Shown: positions 1,466-30,813 of the stretch, piece after piece | Numbering within the stretch: the first letter of the stretch is position 1 | Layout: each line of letters opens with the position of its first letter | Made by a program: the position numbers and the translations under genes | Virus record (IMG/VR): IMGVR_UViG_3300045118_000261 | Location: 1-40,454 of that record | DNA from: a virus | Direction: 5' to 3' (one strand) | DNA length: 40,454 bases | The notes under the pieces: model-generated | What the model saw: only the letters and a program-made list of their open reading frames with translations | Databases searched by the model: none | What the model was told of the DNA's origin: nothing

Positions 1466-2950
1466 TCATAACTCGACCATCTCTGGTACTCCGTTTTCAT
1501 CCAGACGTGTCGCAAATTCCTCCTGATGTGTCGCAACGTGTAGCGTTTCTAAGGCTGGTGCGACACTTGCGACACTTGCGACACTTGCTACAGATACGGA
1601 ACTTATACCAAAATATGATACTAAATCTTCTAATCTTTCCGGTTTTTCGCTAACAAATACCGTACTTGTGTTCTCGTGACCATATCTTTTTATATCAAAA
1701 TGTAGTATCTGTCTTATAATATTTGCTACCCTCTTTTCTGTTATAGGCTTTCTTCCTCTGTCTGTGTTTATTTTTTCTGTTATTTGCTTGATTGTTGGAT
1801 CAGTTGGCAAAAAATCATATATGCACTGAAACACCTCTCCCTCAAGGCTATCAAGCCTTTCTCTTTTTGTTTCAGCTTCCTGTATTGTCGCAAACTCGAA
1901 TATCTTTGCCCTGGATGCGTCATCAGATAAATAATATATAGGTGTAAGTACCTGCTGCACTCGTCTATCGAATGCAGAAAGCTCTGGAAATCCAAACTCT
2001 ATCTCTCCTAGGTCTATTTTATGTAGGTTTCTTAATCTCCATAATAATAACTTGTTTCTGAGAGAGAGAGATTTGTCATAAAATGATTTTTGCTTAATTA
2101 AAGGTATTCTTCTTGTACTCTTTTCCATTTCTATTACGAACATACGAGATCGTAATCCCGCGTTGGTTATGGGGCGCTCTGAGGTAAATATCTTCATTGA
2201 CTTAATGAGATATGCCTGTACCTCTCTCTTTGTGTCGCCTTCTGTACGTAAAACAGCCCTATTCCCTACTCCACTTTTAAGGAAAGATATCATCTCCTTA
2301 TAGTTATCTCCTTCGGGCTCAAATTCATCTAAAAACAGCGTCCCTCGCCATGAGCTAGCCATTCTAAATATAGGCGACATGGTTATGGAACCTGCCGCAT
2401 CTATTGGCTTGTAACATATACTTGTTACAGCCTCAGCAGCAGTAGTTTTACCTGTGCCAGTAAGACCAACGAAATGTAGGTAGGGGACAAAAGGAAATGG
2501 CTCATACACCCATGAAAACAACACTATATATGGTAAAAATCTTTGATAAAATGACGGAACCTCAAAATTATCATATAAAAAGTCATATATCTCTTGTACT
2601 AATTGCTCTGTCGTCCCATATTCCTCGATACCCGAAGGCAAAACGATAACACCAGACCGGAGGAGATTATCTTTTATAGGTCTATACTCCTTATCTTGGT
2701 ATATAAATGAGTCTAAGTAGTCAATTGAGGCTGTTTGTTTATCGTATATAATATAATTGGTATCTGTAGCATCATTCGCATGTGTTGCACGTGTCGCAGA
2801 TTGATTTCCTATAGGACATATCTGCTCTAAGATAGACTTTTCTGTTTCTAGGTATGAAGTATATATCACATTTTTATCGTTTTCCTTCATTTCTTTGTTT
2901 ACCTTACGGAGTATAGATTTTTCTTCTCTGGTTAATTCTTTAGAAGCCAT
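1466..2950 (-). CDS. P-loop ATPase / putative replication helicase
   Basis: A 494-residue protein with a Walker A motif GLTGTGKTT (residues 162-170), a Walker B-like strand TLFLDEFE (204-211) and an arginine-finger-like LRSRMF (266-271). The spacing fits an AAA+ or superfamily 3-like phage replication ATPase. Residues about 385-450 look like a winged helix. Near the C-terminus a nine-base tandem repeat encodes SVASVASVASV. The start has a good ribosome-binding site (AAAGGA). It is preceded by a small gene at 2932-3111 that overlaps it, and lies next to the control region. Its exact role, helicase or primase-helicase, cannot be settled by eye. Confidence 0.75.
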   Translation of the reverse strand: MASKELTREEKSILRKVNKEMKENDKNVIYTSYLETEKSILEQICPIGNQSATRATHANDATDTNYIIYDKQTASIDYLDSFIYQDKEYRPIKDNLLRSGVIVLPSGIEEYGTTEQLVQEIYDFLYDNFEVPSFYQRFLPYIVLFSWVYEPFPFVPYLHFVGLTGTGKTTAAEAVTSICYKPIDAAGSITMSPIFRMASSWRGTLFLDEFEPEGDNYKEMISFLKSGVGNRAVLRTEGDTKREVQAYLIKSMKIFTSERPITNAGLRSRMFVIEMEKSTRRIPLIKQKSFYDKSLSLRNKLLLWRLRNLHKIDLGEIEFGFPELSAFDRRVQQVLTPIYYLSDDASRAKIFEFATIQEAETKRERLDSLEGEVFQCIYDFLPTDPTIKQITEKINTDRGRKPITEKRVANIIRQILHFDIKRYGHENTSTVFVSEKPERLEDLVSYFGISSVSVASVASVASVAPALETLHVATHQEEFATRLDENGVPEMVEL

Positions 2951-3111
2951 AAAATCCTTTCTGCTATACCAATAAATAGCCGGTTATATGTACTTGATTC
3001 ATTTTCATAATAAGTTTTCATGTTTTTTGAAAAAATAGACAAATATGCGTATTCATCTGCGGTTTCTCCATATCTATCTAAAAGATTTGACAATATAGTT
3101 ATTTCATTCAT
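2932..3111 (-). CDS. Small hypothetical protein upstream of the ATPase
   Basis: A 59-residue ORF beginning MNEITILSNLLDRYGE. It overlaps the ATPase gene start by 19 bases, and the ribosome-binding site of the ATPase lies inside it, so the two are probably co-translated. It is mostly helical and has mixed charge. Its own start lacks a clear ribosome-binding site and follows directly after a GC-rich hairpin with a short T-run, so it may be controlled by attenuation in that leader. Confidence 0.65.
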   Translation of the reverse strand: MNEITILSNLLDRYGETADEYAYLSIFSKNMKTYYENESSTYNRLFIGIAERILWLLKN

Positions 3112-3228
3112 ATATCAAAAGCCCCCCGCGCTCTCAGATGAGATTGACCGTCTGGTTAGGGATGGTGGCGCGGGGGACTACCGATGTGCACAAAAAATCT
3201 CGTCTTTTTTACCATTTCCCTAACCTAA
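3111..3228 (-). promoter_or_regulatory. Structured leader RNA / possible attenuator or pseudoknot
   Basis: Between the leftward promoter and the first leftward gene lies a leader of about 118 bases. In the RNA, region 1 (3225-3211, GGTTAGGGAAATGGT) pairs with region 3 (3166-3154, ACCATCCCTAACC). Region 2 (3178-3167, GTCCCCCGCGCC) pairs with region 4 (3131-3121, GCGCGGGGGGC). The two helices cross, so they can form a pseudoknot. The second helix is followed by TTTTG, like a terminator. This GC-rich block stands out in AT-rich surroundings. Confidence 0.55.
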
Positions 3229-3235
3229 TATCAAC

Positions 3236-3262
3236 ACTATACCCTATTTTTGAATCTGTCAA
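3236..3262 (-). promoter_or_regulatory. Leftward promoter for the leader and replication genes
   Basis: The minus strand has TTGACA (3262-3257) followed after 15 bases by TATAGT (3241-3236). Shifting the -10 by two bases to TAGTGT gives a 17-base spacer. Its -35 is only seven bases from the -35 of the rightward promoter, so the two are back to back and could compete or share a regulator. Confidence 0.55.
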
Positions 3263-3269
3263 TAGGCAG

Positions 3270-3298
3270 TTGTACAATATGAATAAATGGTATATAAT
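3270..3298 (+). promoter_or_regulatory. Rightward promoter with overlapping operator-like site
   Basis: TTGTAC (3270-3275), 17 bases, then TATAAT (3293-3298). The predicted start of transcription is at or within a base or two of the ATG at 3306, so the message is probably leaderless. The stretch TTGTACAATATG (3270-3281) matches 11 of 12 bases of the palindromic operator in the two strong leftward promoters, and it covers the -35. This would allow the HTH product to regulate itself. Confidence 0.65.
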
Positions 3299-3305
3299 GT
3301 ACACT

Positions 3306-3515
3306 ATGAAAGAAGAAACAATCAGAAAAATGACAGAAGCAGAAAATAGAAGAAAGTTAATAATTTCCCTTGCCAAGAGCATGAGCAATAATGCACTTGC
3401 GAAACACTTTGGAGTTTCGGTTCAGAGAATTCAACAGATTAAGCAACGCGAAAAACTTGGATATTATCTGCATAATAAAAAATATGTTAAAAAATCCAAA
3501 AAGCAAAGGAAATAG
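3306..3515 (+). CDS. Small helix-turn-helix regulator (possible repressor)
   Basis: A 69-residue basic protein with a helix-turn-helix around residues 27-47 (SNNALAKHFGVSVQRIQQIK) and a lysine-rich tail. I chose the ATG at 3306 because the promoter -10 ends only seven bases before it; a longer reading frame upstream would run through the promoter and the GC-rich leader. It is transcribed away from the replication genes, the usual place of a phage repressor or Cro-like protein. That it binds the CATATTGTGCAATATG palindromes is an inference. Confidence 0.7.
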   Translation: MKEETIRKMTEAENRRKLIISLAKSMSNNALAKHFGVSVQRIQQIKQREKLGYYLHNKKYVKKSKKQRK

Positions 3516-3912
3516 ACACGAAAGACACGTTGCAGAGCTTCTCAGAGGATATGGATTTGATGCCAAGAGAACTCCAATGAGCGGAGCAATTGATTGGATG
3601 AAGGGAGATATAACATCCCGTGACTTCCCTTTTTTTATTGAAGCAAAGAATACTGAAAAAACAAAGTTTTTAGAATGGTATAAAAAAGCAGAAGATCAAT
3701 CAGGAGCAATGCCACCGATTATAGTGTGGACATCAAACAATGAAAACATATACTGTTTTTTATTATTTACGGACATGTTGAGCCTTATGACTGGAGGAGC
3801 CATGATAAAAGAAAAAATAAAAAAGCCAGAAAAGCCAAAAAAATTATCTCTTGAGGAAACGACGAGATTGAAATTTAGTAAAATTAAACAAGTACGAAGA
3901 AAATTTAAGTAG
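3484..3912 (+). CDS. PD-(D/E)XK nuclease, Holliday-junction-resolvase-like
   Basis: A 142-residue protein. The likely active site is E13 (in RHERHVAELL), D42 (KGDIT) and E53-x-K55 (FIEAK), the order expected for archaeal-type resolvases and related phage nucleases that cut branched DNA. The C-terminus is basic. The start at 3484 overlaps the 3' end of the HTH gene by 32 bases, and there is no clear ribosome-binding site, so translation may depend on the upstream gene. A role in resolving recombination or packaging intermediates is inferred from the fold signature. Confidence 0.65.
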   Translation: MLKNPKSKGNRHERHVAELLRGYGFDAKRTPMSGAIDWMKGDITSRDFPFFIEAKNTEKTKFLEWYKKAEDQSGAMPPIIVWTSNNENIYCFLLFTDMLSLMTGGAMIKEKIKKPEKPKKLSLEETTRLKFSKIKQVRRKFK

Positions 3913-28923: not shown

Positions 28924-29400
28924 TTATTTCGATACATTTATAAAACTTGGCCTTTTATCTTTTACCATGCGGTCTATCATATTATTCATATCATTTACCG
29001 TTTTCGGATAAAAATGTATTATATTTCTTAGCGTATATAGAATATTCGGTATGTCACATGCCTCATGGCTAAATCCATCATGACGGCTATATTGATCGTC
29101 TACACCAGCACCAATCATTTTCACGTTTAGGTTTTCATAGTTAATATATGTTCGTATTGTCTCAAATCCACGAAGAAGAAATGGCGTTATTGTGTAGATA
29201 AACGGTATTTTTTCTGAATATGCAAGTCCTACTGCTATATCCATTGCCGTTTGTTCGGCTGCCTCTGTATTGATGGCTCGATCTCCAAATTTTTCCTTAA
29301 ATTCCTCAAGTCTTGGATATCCTAATCCAACAAAAATAAGATAAACCTTTTTGTTTTTTCTCATTACTTCAAATAGCTTATCAAATAATTCTTTTTTCAT
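28924..29400 (-). CDS. Transketolase-like subunit, pyrimidine-binding domain
   Basis: A 158-residue protein matching the central domain of transketolase / DXP synthase-like enzymes. NTEAAEQTAMDIAVGLA (44-60) holds the catalytic glutamate (E49) that activates thiamine diphosphate, followed by the PFIYTITPFLLRG and HDGFSHEACDIP segments. No third domain is present. It overlaps the gene for the other half by four bases (ATGA), so both halves would be made together and form one enzyme. Two-subunit transketolases of this kind occur in archaea and in some surface-sugar gene clusters; the substrate here is unknown. Confidence 0.8.
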   Translation of the reverse strand: MKKELFDKLFEVMRKNKKVYLIFVGLGYPRLEEFKEKFGDRAINTEAAEQTAMDIAVGLAYSEKIPFIYTITPFLLRGFETIRTYINYENLNVKMIGAGVDDQYSRHDGFSHEACDIPNILYTLRNIIHFYPKTVNDMNNMIDRMVKDKRPSFINVSK

Positions 29401-29969
29401 AACGTCATATAATGACCTTTTAGTCCTTGAAATTGATTTCCGTTGTTTGTCCAGTAAATATATGGATCACTATTAAATGATCTCATTCGTAATTCAAGAG
29501 TTAATCTATCAACCTCTTGAACTGCACTAAATCCATTGAAATTACAATAAATCTTTAGATTTTCAAGTTTTAGACTATCTCTAATTCTTAATGCCTCCCA
29601 GTTGCTCCCCTCCATCATTGACCCGTCACTTACGACACAATGGACTGCTTTAGTTCTATTAGAAATCGCTATTCCTATACCTATACCTATACCATGACCA
29701 AGAGATCCACCAGATACGTCGCACCCTGCCTTTTTATCACAATGAATTCCATGAGCTTTTAATAAATATTCTATATTTTCTAAGCGTTCATATTTTTCTC
29801 TTACTACGAGATGAGCTAGATGTGCATGTCCATTGTCGAGGATAACAATATCTTTTTTGTTTTTGTTGGTATAAATTTCAATAAGAATAGGAAGCACGGA
29901 AATATTTGACCCTATATGGGAGAGATTGTATTTTTTGCTTATTTCGATAACCCGATCTTCAAGGCTCAT
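29397..29969 (-). CDS. Transketolase-like subunit, thiamine diphosphate-binding domain
   Basis: A 190-residue protein matching the N-terminal domain of transketolase. Conserved pieces include LSHIGSNISVLPIL (16-29), ILDNGHAHLAH (43-53), SGGSLGHGIGIGIG (86-99) and the metal/diphosphate motif SDGSMMEG with a later Asn (D115, N143/N145). The domain is shorter than in full enzymes. It would pair with the protein at 28924-29400. Its ATG lies inside a 14-base hairpin without a ribosome-binding site, so translation is probably controlled or coupled. Confidence 0.8.
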   Translation of the reverse strand: MSLEDRVIEISKKYNLSHIGSNISVLPILIEIYTNKNKKDIVILDNGHAHLAHLVVREKYERLENIEYLLKAHGIHCDKKAGCDVSGGSLGHGIGIGIGIAISNRTKAVHCVVSDGSMMEGSNWEALRIRDSLKLENLKIYCNFNGFSAVQEVDRLTLELRMRSFNSDPYIYWTNNGNQFQGLKGHYMTL

Positions 29970-30006: not shown

Positions 30007-30813
30007 TTAACCAATCATTTCAAGAATAATATCTTCTATTGTTTGCTTTGGCTTCCACCCTAAAAAACTAAGAACTTCTATATTCGATACCCATTTTTTC
30101 GTGTCATATGGACGTAAAGATTCAACCTCTTTAATATTCGCTTTTTTATGAGTGATTTTCTCTACAATTTCTTTTATTTTTTTATTGCTTATACATTCTC
30201 CTGAGCCTATATCAATGATTTGTCCCTTTAACTTATCAGCATATTGCATAAGACATAGAACCGCCTCACATAAATCTTTAACTCCTATAAAATCATGAAC
30301 AGGATTAGAAACAAAAGGAATTTCTATTCCCAATTGACAGCTTTTTATAAGTCTGGGTATAAGATGCTCTTCTTGCTCTCCTTTTCCTATGACTGTAAAT
30401 GGACGAACAGAAAAAACAGGCTTATTGTATTTATTCACAAACGCTCTTACTATTCTCTCCCCCGATGCTTTTGTTGCGCTATAAAATGTCTCATGTGAAA
30501 GCATAACACTTGAGGAACTAAAATTTATAAATCCTTGATAATCTATATTTCTTGTCATTTCAAGAAGATTTGCTAGTCCAATAATATTTGCATAAATAGT
30601 TTCAAAATCATTGTCTTGACTATATTTGTTTCCATATGCTGCGGTATGGATAATAAAATCAGGTTTATTATAATTAAAAAATTCCGTTATTTTTCTAAAA
30701 TCATAAAGAATATCACGAGGCATTCCGAGAACGGAAAACTCAGACCCTTTAAGAGTCTTTTCGAGATTTTGTGCTATAAAACCATTCCAGCCGGTCAAAA
30801 CGCATTTAACCAT
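30007..30813 (-). CDS. NAD-dependent epimerase/dehydratase (extended SDR)
   Basis: A 268-residue sugar-nucleotide enzyme. The Rossmann motif is TGWNGFIAQN (7-16), with a Trp where Gly or Ala is usual. The active site has S99-S100 and Y111-x3-K115 (FYSATKAS). The middle resembles GDP/UDP-sugar epimerases (RPFTVIGKGEQEEHLIPR). It is shorter than typical 310-residue members. With the transketolase halves downstream, it probably makes or changes an activated sugar. Confidence 0.8.
   Translation of the reverse strand: MVKCVLTGWNGFIAQNLEKTLKGSEFSVLGMPRDILYDFRKITEFFNYNKPDFIIHTAAYGNKYSQDNDFETIYANIIGLANLLEMTRNIDYQGFINFSSSSVMLSHETFYSATKASGERIVRAFVNKYNKPVFSVRPFTVIGKGEQEEHLIPRLIKSCQLGIEIPFVSNPVHDFIGVKDLCEAVLCLMQYADKLKGQIIDIGSGECISNKKIKEIVEKITHKKANIKEVESLRPYDTKKWVSNIEVLSFLGWKPKQTIEDIILEMIG

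Follow-up and report, generated by a model that had tools for sequence, protein, structure and literature searches.

Two crossing helices in the leader of a phage replication operon: a candidate attenuator

In known attenuators, helices compete for one strand. The H-type pseudoknot leaders preQ1, SAM-II, S15, and T4 gene 32 place two crossing helices in an mRNA leader, with short stems and a conserved core. The CI/seqA-seqC immunity leader of phage P4 stops transcription of a replication operon early by base pairing; one of its segments pairs with two others, and its RNA is processed from the transcript and acts in trans (PMC4825925). In pT181, the leader of the replication gene carries an early hairpin followed by one that resembles a terminator. 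There the antiterminator captures the 5' portion of the terminator stem, and an antisense RNA decides between the alternatives (PMC4878617). The C4 antisense RNA of P1 and P7 (RF01695) is likewise a phage leader RNA, its complementarity lying in two separate segments and its specificity changing fast; it has three stems, is cut by RNase P, and pairs with a distant target (PMC5320573). Gifsy-1 IsrK comprises a phage promoter, a short terminated RNA, a read-through form, and a small ORF coupled in translation to the next gene, and it activates its own long form in trans (PMC4825925).

The leader described here shares features with all of these. Like the P4 leader it precedes a phage replication operon, but it has two independent crossing pairs. 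Its arms A and B overlap nowhere, unlike those of pT181, and no antisense promoter is conserved. Its structure and genes differ from those of IsrK, and compared with the H-type leaders its stems are long (9-15 pairs), its loops are of very unequal length (0 to about 32 nt), and a conserved core is absent. A search of the records with RF01695 gave no match; control genomes gave none either, so this result is weak, and a full Rfam scan of the window and five loci found no C4. The kind of element, a phage leader attenuator, is known, whereas a description of the crossing design could not be found in the literature searched.

The window is the whole stretch of DNA that was analysed, the 40,454-base virus record IMGVR_UViG_3300045118_000261. 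Its gene direction is mostly leftward, and it carries the tailed-phage genes terminase, portal, and endolysin. The leader and its operon contain the following features.

3236-3262, minus strand: sigma70-like promoter, with -35 TTGACA (3262-3257), a 15-nt spacer, and -10 TATAGT (3241-3236)
3211-3225, minus strand: arm A1 (region 1), GGTTAGGGAAATGGT, containing the AUG (3215-3213) of a 19-codon leader ORF
3156-3215, minus strand: predicted short leader ORF, MVKKTRFFVHIGSPPRHHP, with its AUG within A1 and its stop within A1'
3168-3179, minus strand: arm B1 (region 2), AGTCCCCCGCGC, partner of B1'
3154-3166, minus strand: arm A1' (region 3), ACCATCCCTAACC, forming 13 pairs with A1 around a 2-nt AA bulge
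3137-3145, minus strand: possible third arm, AATCTCATC, with its partner GACGAGATT at 3204-3196, in the window only
3120-3131, minus strand: arm B1' (region 4), GCGCGGGGGGCT, forming 12 pairs with B1, one of them U.G
3112-3119, minus strand: U-rich tail 3' of helix B, assessed by U count against background over eight leaders
2932-3111, minus strand: first gene 3' of the leader, a 59-aa ORF (MNEITILSNLLDRYGETADEYAYLSIF...) read from the sequence
1466-2950, minus strand: P-loop helicase/primase-like protein of 494 aa in the replication operon (PHROG 1139 DNA primase, E 9e-5)

The element runs from 3225 to 3120 on the minus strand with its arms in the order A1-B1-A1'-B1', and the helices cross, which is the arrangement of an H-type pseudoknot. 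The initial annotation had claimed two such helices, and both are confirmed on this strand. The helix of regions 1 and 3 (helix A) has the 13 pairs and the two-base bulge proposed for it. The pairing of regions 2 and 4 (helix B) also stands, but the count of 11 pairs does not, as there are 12 including the U.G. The loops in the window are 31, 1, and 22 nt, and the bases directly 3' of B1' are TTTGATATATG. The possible third helix, GACGAGATT with AATCTCATC, crosses both A and B and is present in the window only.

The promoter TTGACA-15-TATAGT has the top score among sampled sites (0/300 background), its 15-nt spacer being suboptimal, and its end lies 10 nt upstream of arm A1. The predicted transcription start is upstream of region 1, whereas a start downstream of that region would have counted against the initial annotation by its own criterion. 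The 59-aa ORF, for which a Pfam search gave no match, and the 494-aa protein come next. This agrees with the earlier proposal of a structured leader before replication genes. Within the helicase gene, short repeats (TTGCGACAC and relatives) at 1507-1584 and about 2780-2850 encode ATHATH and VASVASVA runs; the relatives L002 and L026 have their own versions, and such repeats could be embedded origin iterons. On the plus strand, 3306-3912 holds a divergent rightward gene pair for a small HTH protein and a PDDEXK Holliday-junction-resolvase-like nuclease, and a promoter-like TGTACA-16-TATAAT (3271-3298) lies a few nt 5' of the HTH start codon, resembling the layout of a leaderless gene. A DXP synthase/transketolase N-terminal-domain-like fragment beside a PHROG nucleotide-sugar epimerase gene (29397-29969 and 30007-30813) is unusual metabolic cargo located between structural and early genes.

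A crossing-helix scan of both strands of the window ranks the leader first, with a stacking energy of -49.3 kcal/mol, and the next independent site reaches about -40.6 kcal/mol. No dinucleotide shuffle of the window leader attains the real value (0/1000), and the same result was obtained for each of five related leaders, six leaders being tested in all. Nested folding of the window leader is unremarkable (z = -1.6) because a nested structure cannot contain both helices. Among 14 loci, or 317 kb of strands, crossing pairs at or below -42 consist of the leaders, their weaker opposite-strand mirrors, and one coding locus, L013, whose site 3' of the helicase gene is regarded as chance. When the scan was extended to 786 kb of strands, the leaders came up again, together with one further strong site outside the leaders, at the edge of L064. 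Since the arms were picked for their complementarity, statistics on the arms alone are biased; the unbiased support comes from position and genome-wide rank, and the shuffles also carry weight. The crossing structure is very likely real and conserved.

The initial annotation recognized no family with this shape, and Rfam 15 covariance models at the gathering threshold likewise give no match in the window leader or five relatives. The best weak match in a loose Rfam search is Spy779816, at 23.8 bits against the 67 needed. An HDV-like ribozyme was considered because it also has crossing P1 and P2 helices with P1 at the 5' end; on general knowledge of that fold, it is ruled out by the arm lengths and variable joining loops.

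Relatives were sought with the 494-aa helicase/primase-like protein as marker and with alignments of it. Its close relatives occur in IMG/VR only. Among annotated phages, only the distant Virus Rctr41k matches the helicase, no relative was found in the plasmids searched, and cellular genomes yielded two distant archaeal proteins that served only as outgroups of the helicase tree. Seven further leaders with the order A1-B1-A1'-B1' are present in relatives, all of them uncultivated phages, that have the downstream helicase.

L002, 83-184: leader
L012, 4109-4189: leader
L014, 1747-1845: leader
L017, 520-592: leader, first allele
L017's contig, about 48,153 (L057 9354): leader, second allele
L026, 3960-4057: leader
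L042, 3840-3910: leader

All of them lie directly 3' of a sigma70-like promoter and directly 5' of the first gene of the replication operon. In eight other relatives (L008, L009, L010, L013, and L018-L021) the element is absent, and a like promoter runs directly into the first gene, which starts at the equivalent place. Roughly half of the relatives thus manage without it. The element is scattered over several deep lineages of the helicase tree, with four gains or losses on the tree as drawn, at least two of which are forced by well-supported branches. Two DNA-pattern scans for additional copies revealed no new leader. L037 contains a weaker crossing element, AGGCGACG/CGTCGCCT and AAAACATAG/CTATGTTTT, directly 3' of a TATAAT upstream of the operon. 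With 8 and 9 pairs and an AU-rich helix B, it is a weaker ninth case that was left out of the count. It precedes a separate leaderless first gene and is possibly a free-standing terminated RNA.

The arms of different phages have almost no letters in common, while their complementarity is kept. Mean pairing energies are -17.1 kcal/mol for true partners of helix A versus -4.7 kcal/mol for swapped ones, and -21.4 versus -10.0 kcal/mol for helix B. The ungapped cores of the two helices (9 and 8 pairs) comprise 136 pair cells, of which 59 are altered on both sides relative to the commonest pair, and each of the 17 core pairs has at least one two-sided change. Compensatory changes, which the initial annotation had suggested looking for in related leaders and whose absence it had named as a refutation, are thus found in both helices. 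The closeness of L042 to the second L017 allele allows a direct comparison, in which three A pairs are replaced on both sides (AT to GC, GC to TA, and CG to GC). The wobbles on the leader strand comprise 11 G.U and no A.C, which points to the leader strand as the functional molecule.

The eight leaders have a common anatomy. In every one of them, 6-10 nt separate the end of the -10 box from A1, which puts A1 at the extreme 5' end of the presumed transcript. A start codon is located at predicted +0 to +4 in seven of them (AUG, or GUG in L014), and that of the window is within A1. Being in or directly beside A1, the start codon is masked by helix A. In six leaders, the ORF from this codon spans the whole element. 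Those of L002, L012, L014, and L026 overlap the next gene; those of L042 and the second L017 allele share its reading frame, and the latter continues into a CHC2-type primase. In the remaining two leaders, the ORF ends inside the element, after 19 codons in the window and 12 codons in the first L017 allele. Counted over the 8 nt that follow the final G/C of B1', the eight leaders average 4.9 U against a background of 2.3 (P < 1e-5), the tract being weak in both L017 alleles (TTTAAGCG). A GC-rich hairpin followed by a U-rich tract 5' of coding genes is the form of a transcription attenuator, but the hairpin loop is long: helix B encloses about 20-57 nt, a size atypical of intrinsic terminators, and a simple terminator scan limited to loops of 3-8 nt detects no terminator at the leader. 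Loop lengths vary overall, but those of four leaders are closely alike (25/10/0, 20/10/1, 19/9/0, and 15/10/2). Neither loop lengths nor loop sequences are conserved among the leaders, so that the ligand-sensing leader that had been offered as one interpretation is not supported.

Folding predictions point to an order of events. In an RNA ending at A1', more than 90% of helix A pairs are predicted in every leader tested, and once the RNA extends through B1' to full length, all eight have helix B as their best nested structure. Rough energies with textbook pseudoknot penalties favour the pseudoknot in the window, L012, and both L017 alleles, narrowly so in the window and the first L017 allele. 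Nested B is favoured in L002, L014, L026, and, slightly, L042. Given this split of four against four, a stable pseudoknot and a sequential exchange of A for B are both possible in the model.

The preferred reading, with a probability of roughly one half, is that the element is a cis-acting, ribosome-gated attenuator at the 5' end of the replication-operon mRNA, and an attenuator is also the best of the interpretations proposed initially. The broader statement that the element regulates the operon in cis is likely to hold. Transcription would begin a few nt 5' of A1. Helix A is predicted to form once A1' is made, masking the start codon in or next to A1. B1' would emerge about 10-35 nt after A1' and pair with B1, giving a long-loop, terminator-like hairpin, and helix A would either persist in a pseudoknot or be displaced by B. 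Helix B and the U-rich tract may then end transcription or close the ribosome-entry region of the first gene. A ribosome that arrives early at the 5'-terminal start codon, ahead of the synthesis of A1', would translate the leader ORF, and neither helix would form. With both helices open, RNA polymerase could read through and the downstream genes could be translated; some signal would presumably set the balance between these outcomes. Leaderless messages are recognized by 70S ribosomes through a start codon lying at the 5' end or close to it (PMC9031893), and the location of the start codon in these leaders is in keeping with that.

Among the alternatives, a protein-bound or ribosome-access regulator without termination is the strongest, although it is clearly less probable than attenuation. 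Here, the fold would serve as the operator of a phage protein, be it a helicase, a primase, or an ssDNA-binding protein, and would close a G-rich ribosome-entry site in B1'. The T4 gene 32 pseudoknot and those of the ribosomal-protein S15 and alpha operons are models for such an operator. The location before replication genes suits autoregulation, and the G-rich B1' is only a few to about 12 nt 5' of the first-gene start in the window, L002, L014, and L042, but this distance is about 20-40 nt in L012 and L026. A conserved loop or core sequence for protein recognition is lacking, and the over-represented U tract also speaks against an operator.

It is unlikely that the leader is a trans-acting immunity or superinfection RNA, in which case terminated leader would accumulate and pair with the leaders of incoming related phages, with arm divergence providing specificity. 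The fully divergent arms of relatives are in line with this idea, as is the premature, RNA-driven termination to which the P4 replication genes are subject (PMC4825925). The contig of L017, IMGVR_UViG_3300022222_000004, contains two replication-module alleles, at its start (L055 3-480) and its end (L057 8794-9271). Over 478 bp the two contig ends are 99.8% identical, and their divergence sets in shortly before the promoter. Both alleles have different leaders with intact crossing helices, followed by different primase and helicase genes. The leader and replication genes of this contig therefore move as one module, swapped within the L017 population, so that a role in specificity or immunity is possible. 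On the other hand, no tyrosine integrase (PF00589) was found in the element-bearing records searched, several of which are fragments. The arms have no second target elsewhere in the window beyond chance 10-11-mers, and the crossing order is not that favouring one continuous duplex in trans.

An antisense-controlled copy-number attenuator as in plasmid pT181 is very improbable. The position in a replication-operon leader and the succession of an early and a later, terminator-like hairpin are similar, and the window has a TTGACA-18-TATATC (3089-3118, plus strand) from which an antisense RNA could be transcribed. A score as good as that of this promoter-like site is reached by about 3% of background sites, and the site is missing in the other seven leaders, so that the copy-control RNA suggested initially is not supported as a family feature if it depends on an antisense countertranscript. 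Moreover, the early hairpin shares no strand with the terminator, unlike in pT181 (PMC4878617). There is equally little to recommend a DNA or ssDNA element, such as origin hairpins or a recombination site, in place of an RNA. The element adjoins replication genes and the L017 module boundary is near, but that boundary is upstream of the promoter and not within the arms, and the fixed promoter spacing, the start codon in or beside A1, and the U tract likewise count against it. Chance complementarity, to which the short arms and the common G/C runs of helix B might lend some weight, can be dismissed for practical purposes on position and shuffling: each of six leaders gave 0/1000, and the crossing pairs that reach -42 or lower in 317 kb of strands are leaders or mirrors except for one coding locus. 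Its probability is negligible.

Very probably, the element is a genuine control device that had not been described before and on which the reading of the replication genes depends. Its helices share no strand and cross, a design of early-gene switch different from that of known attenuators and absent from Rfam, and this layout is kept across phages whose arms share almost no letters. It is conceivable, though the odds are against it, that these leaders represent a new class of phage RNA switch. In such a class, a 5'-terminal leaderless start codon would be locked in a helix crossing a terminator-like helix, ribosome loading on the nascent mRNA would decide operon transcription early, and the arms would be exchangeable specificity sequences of the replication module. 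Leaderless mRNA is common in many bacteria. The element is small and portable, and it may couple the translation of a leaderless mRNA to transcription of a phage replication operon.
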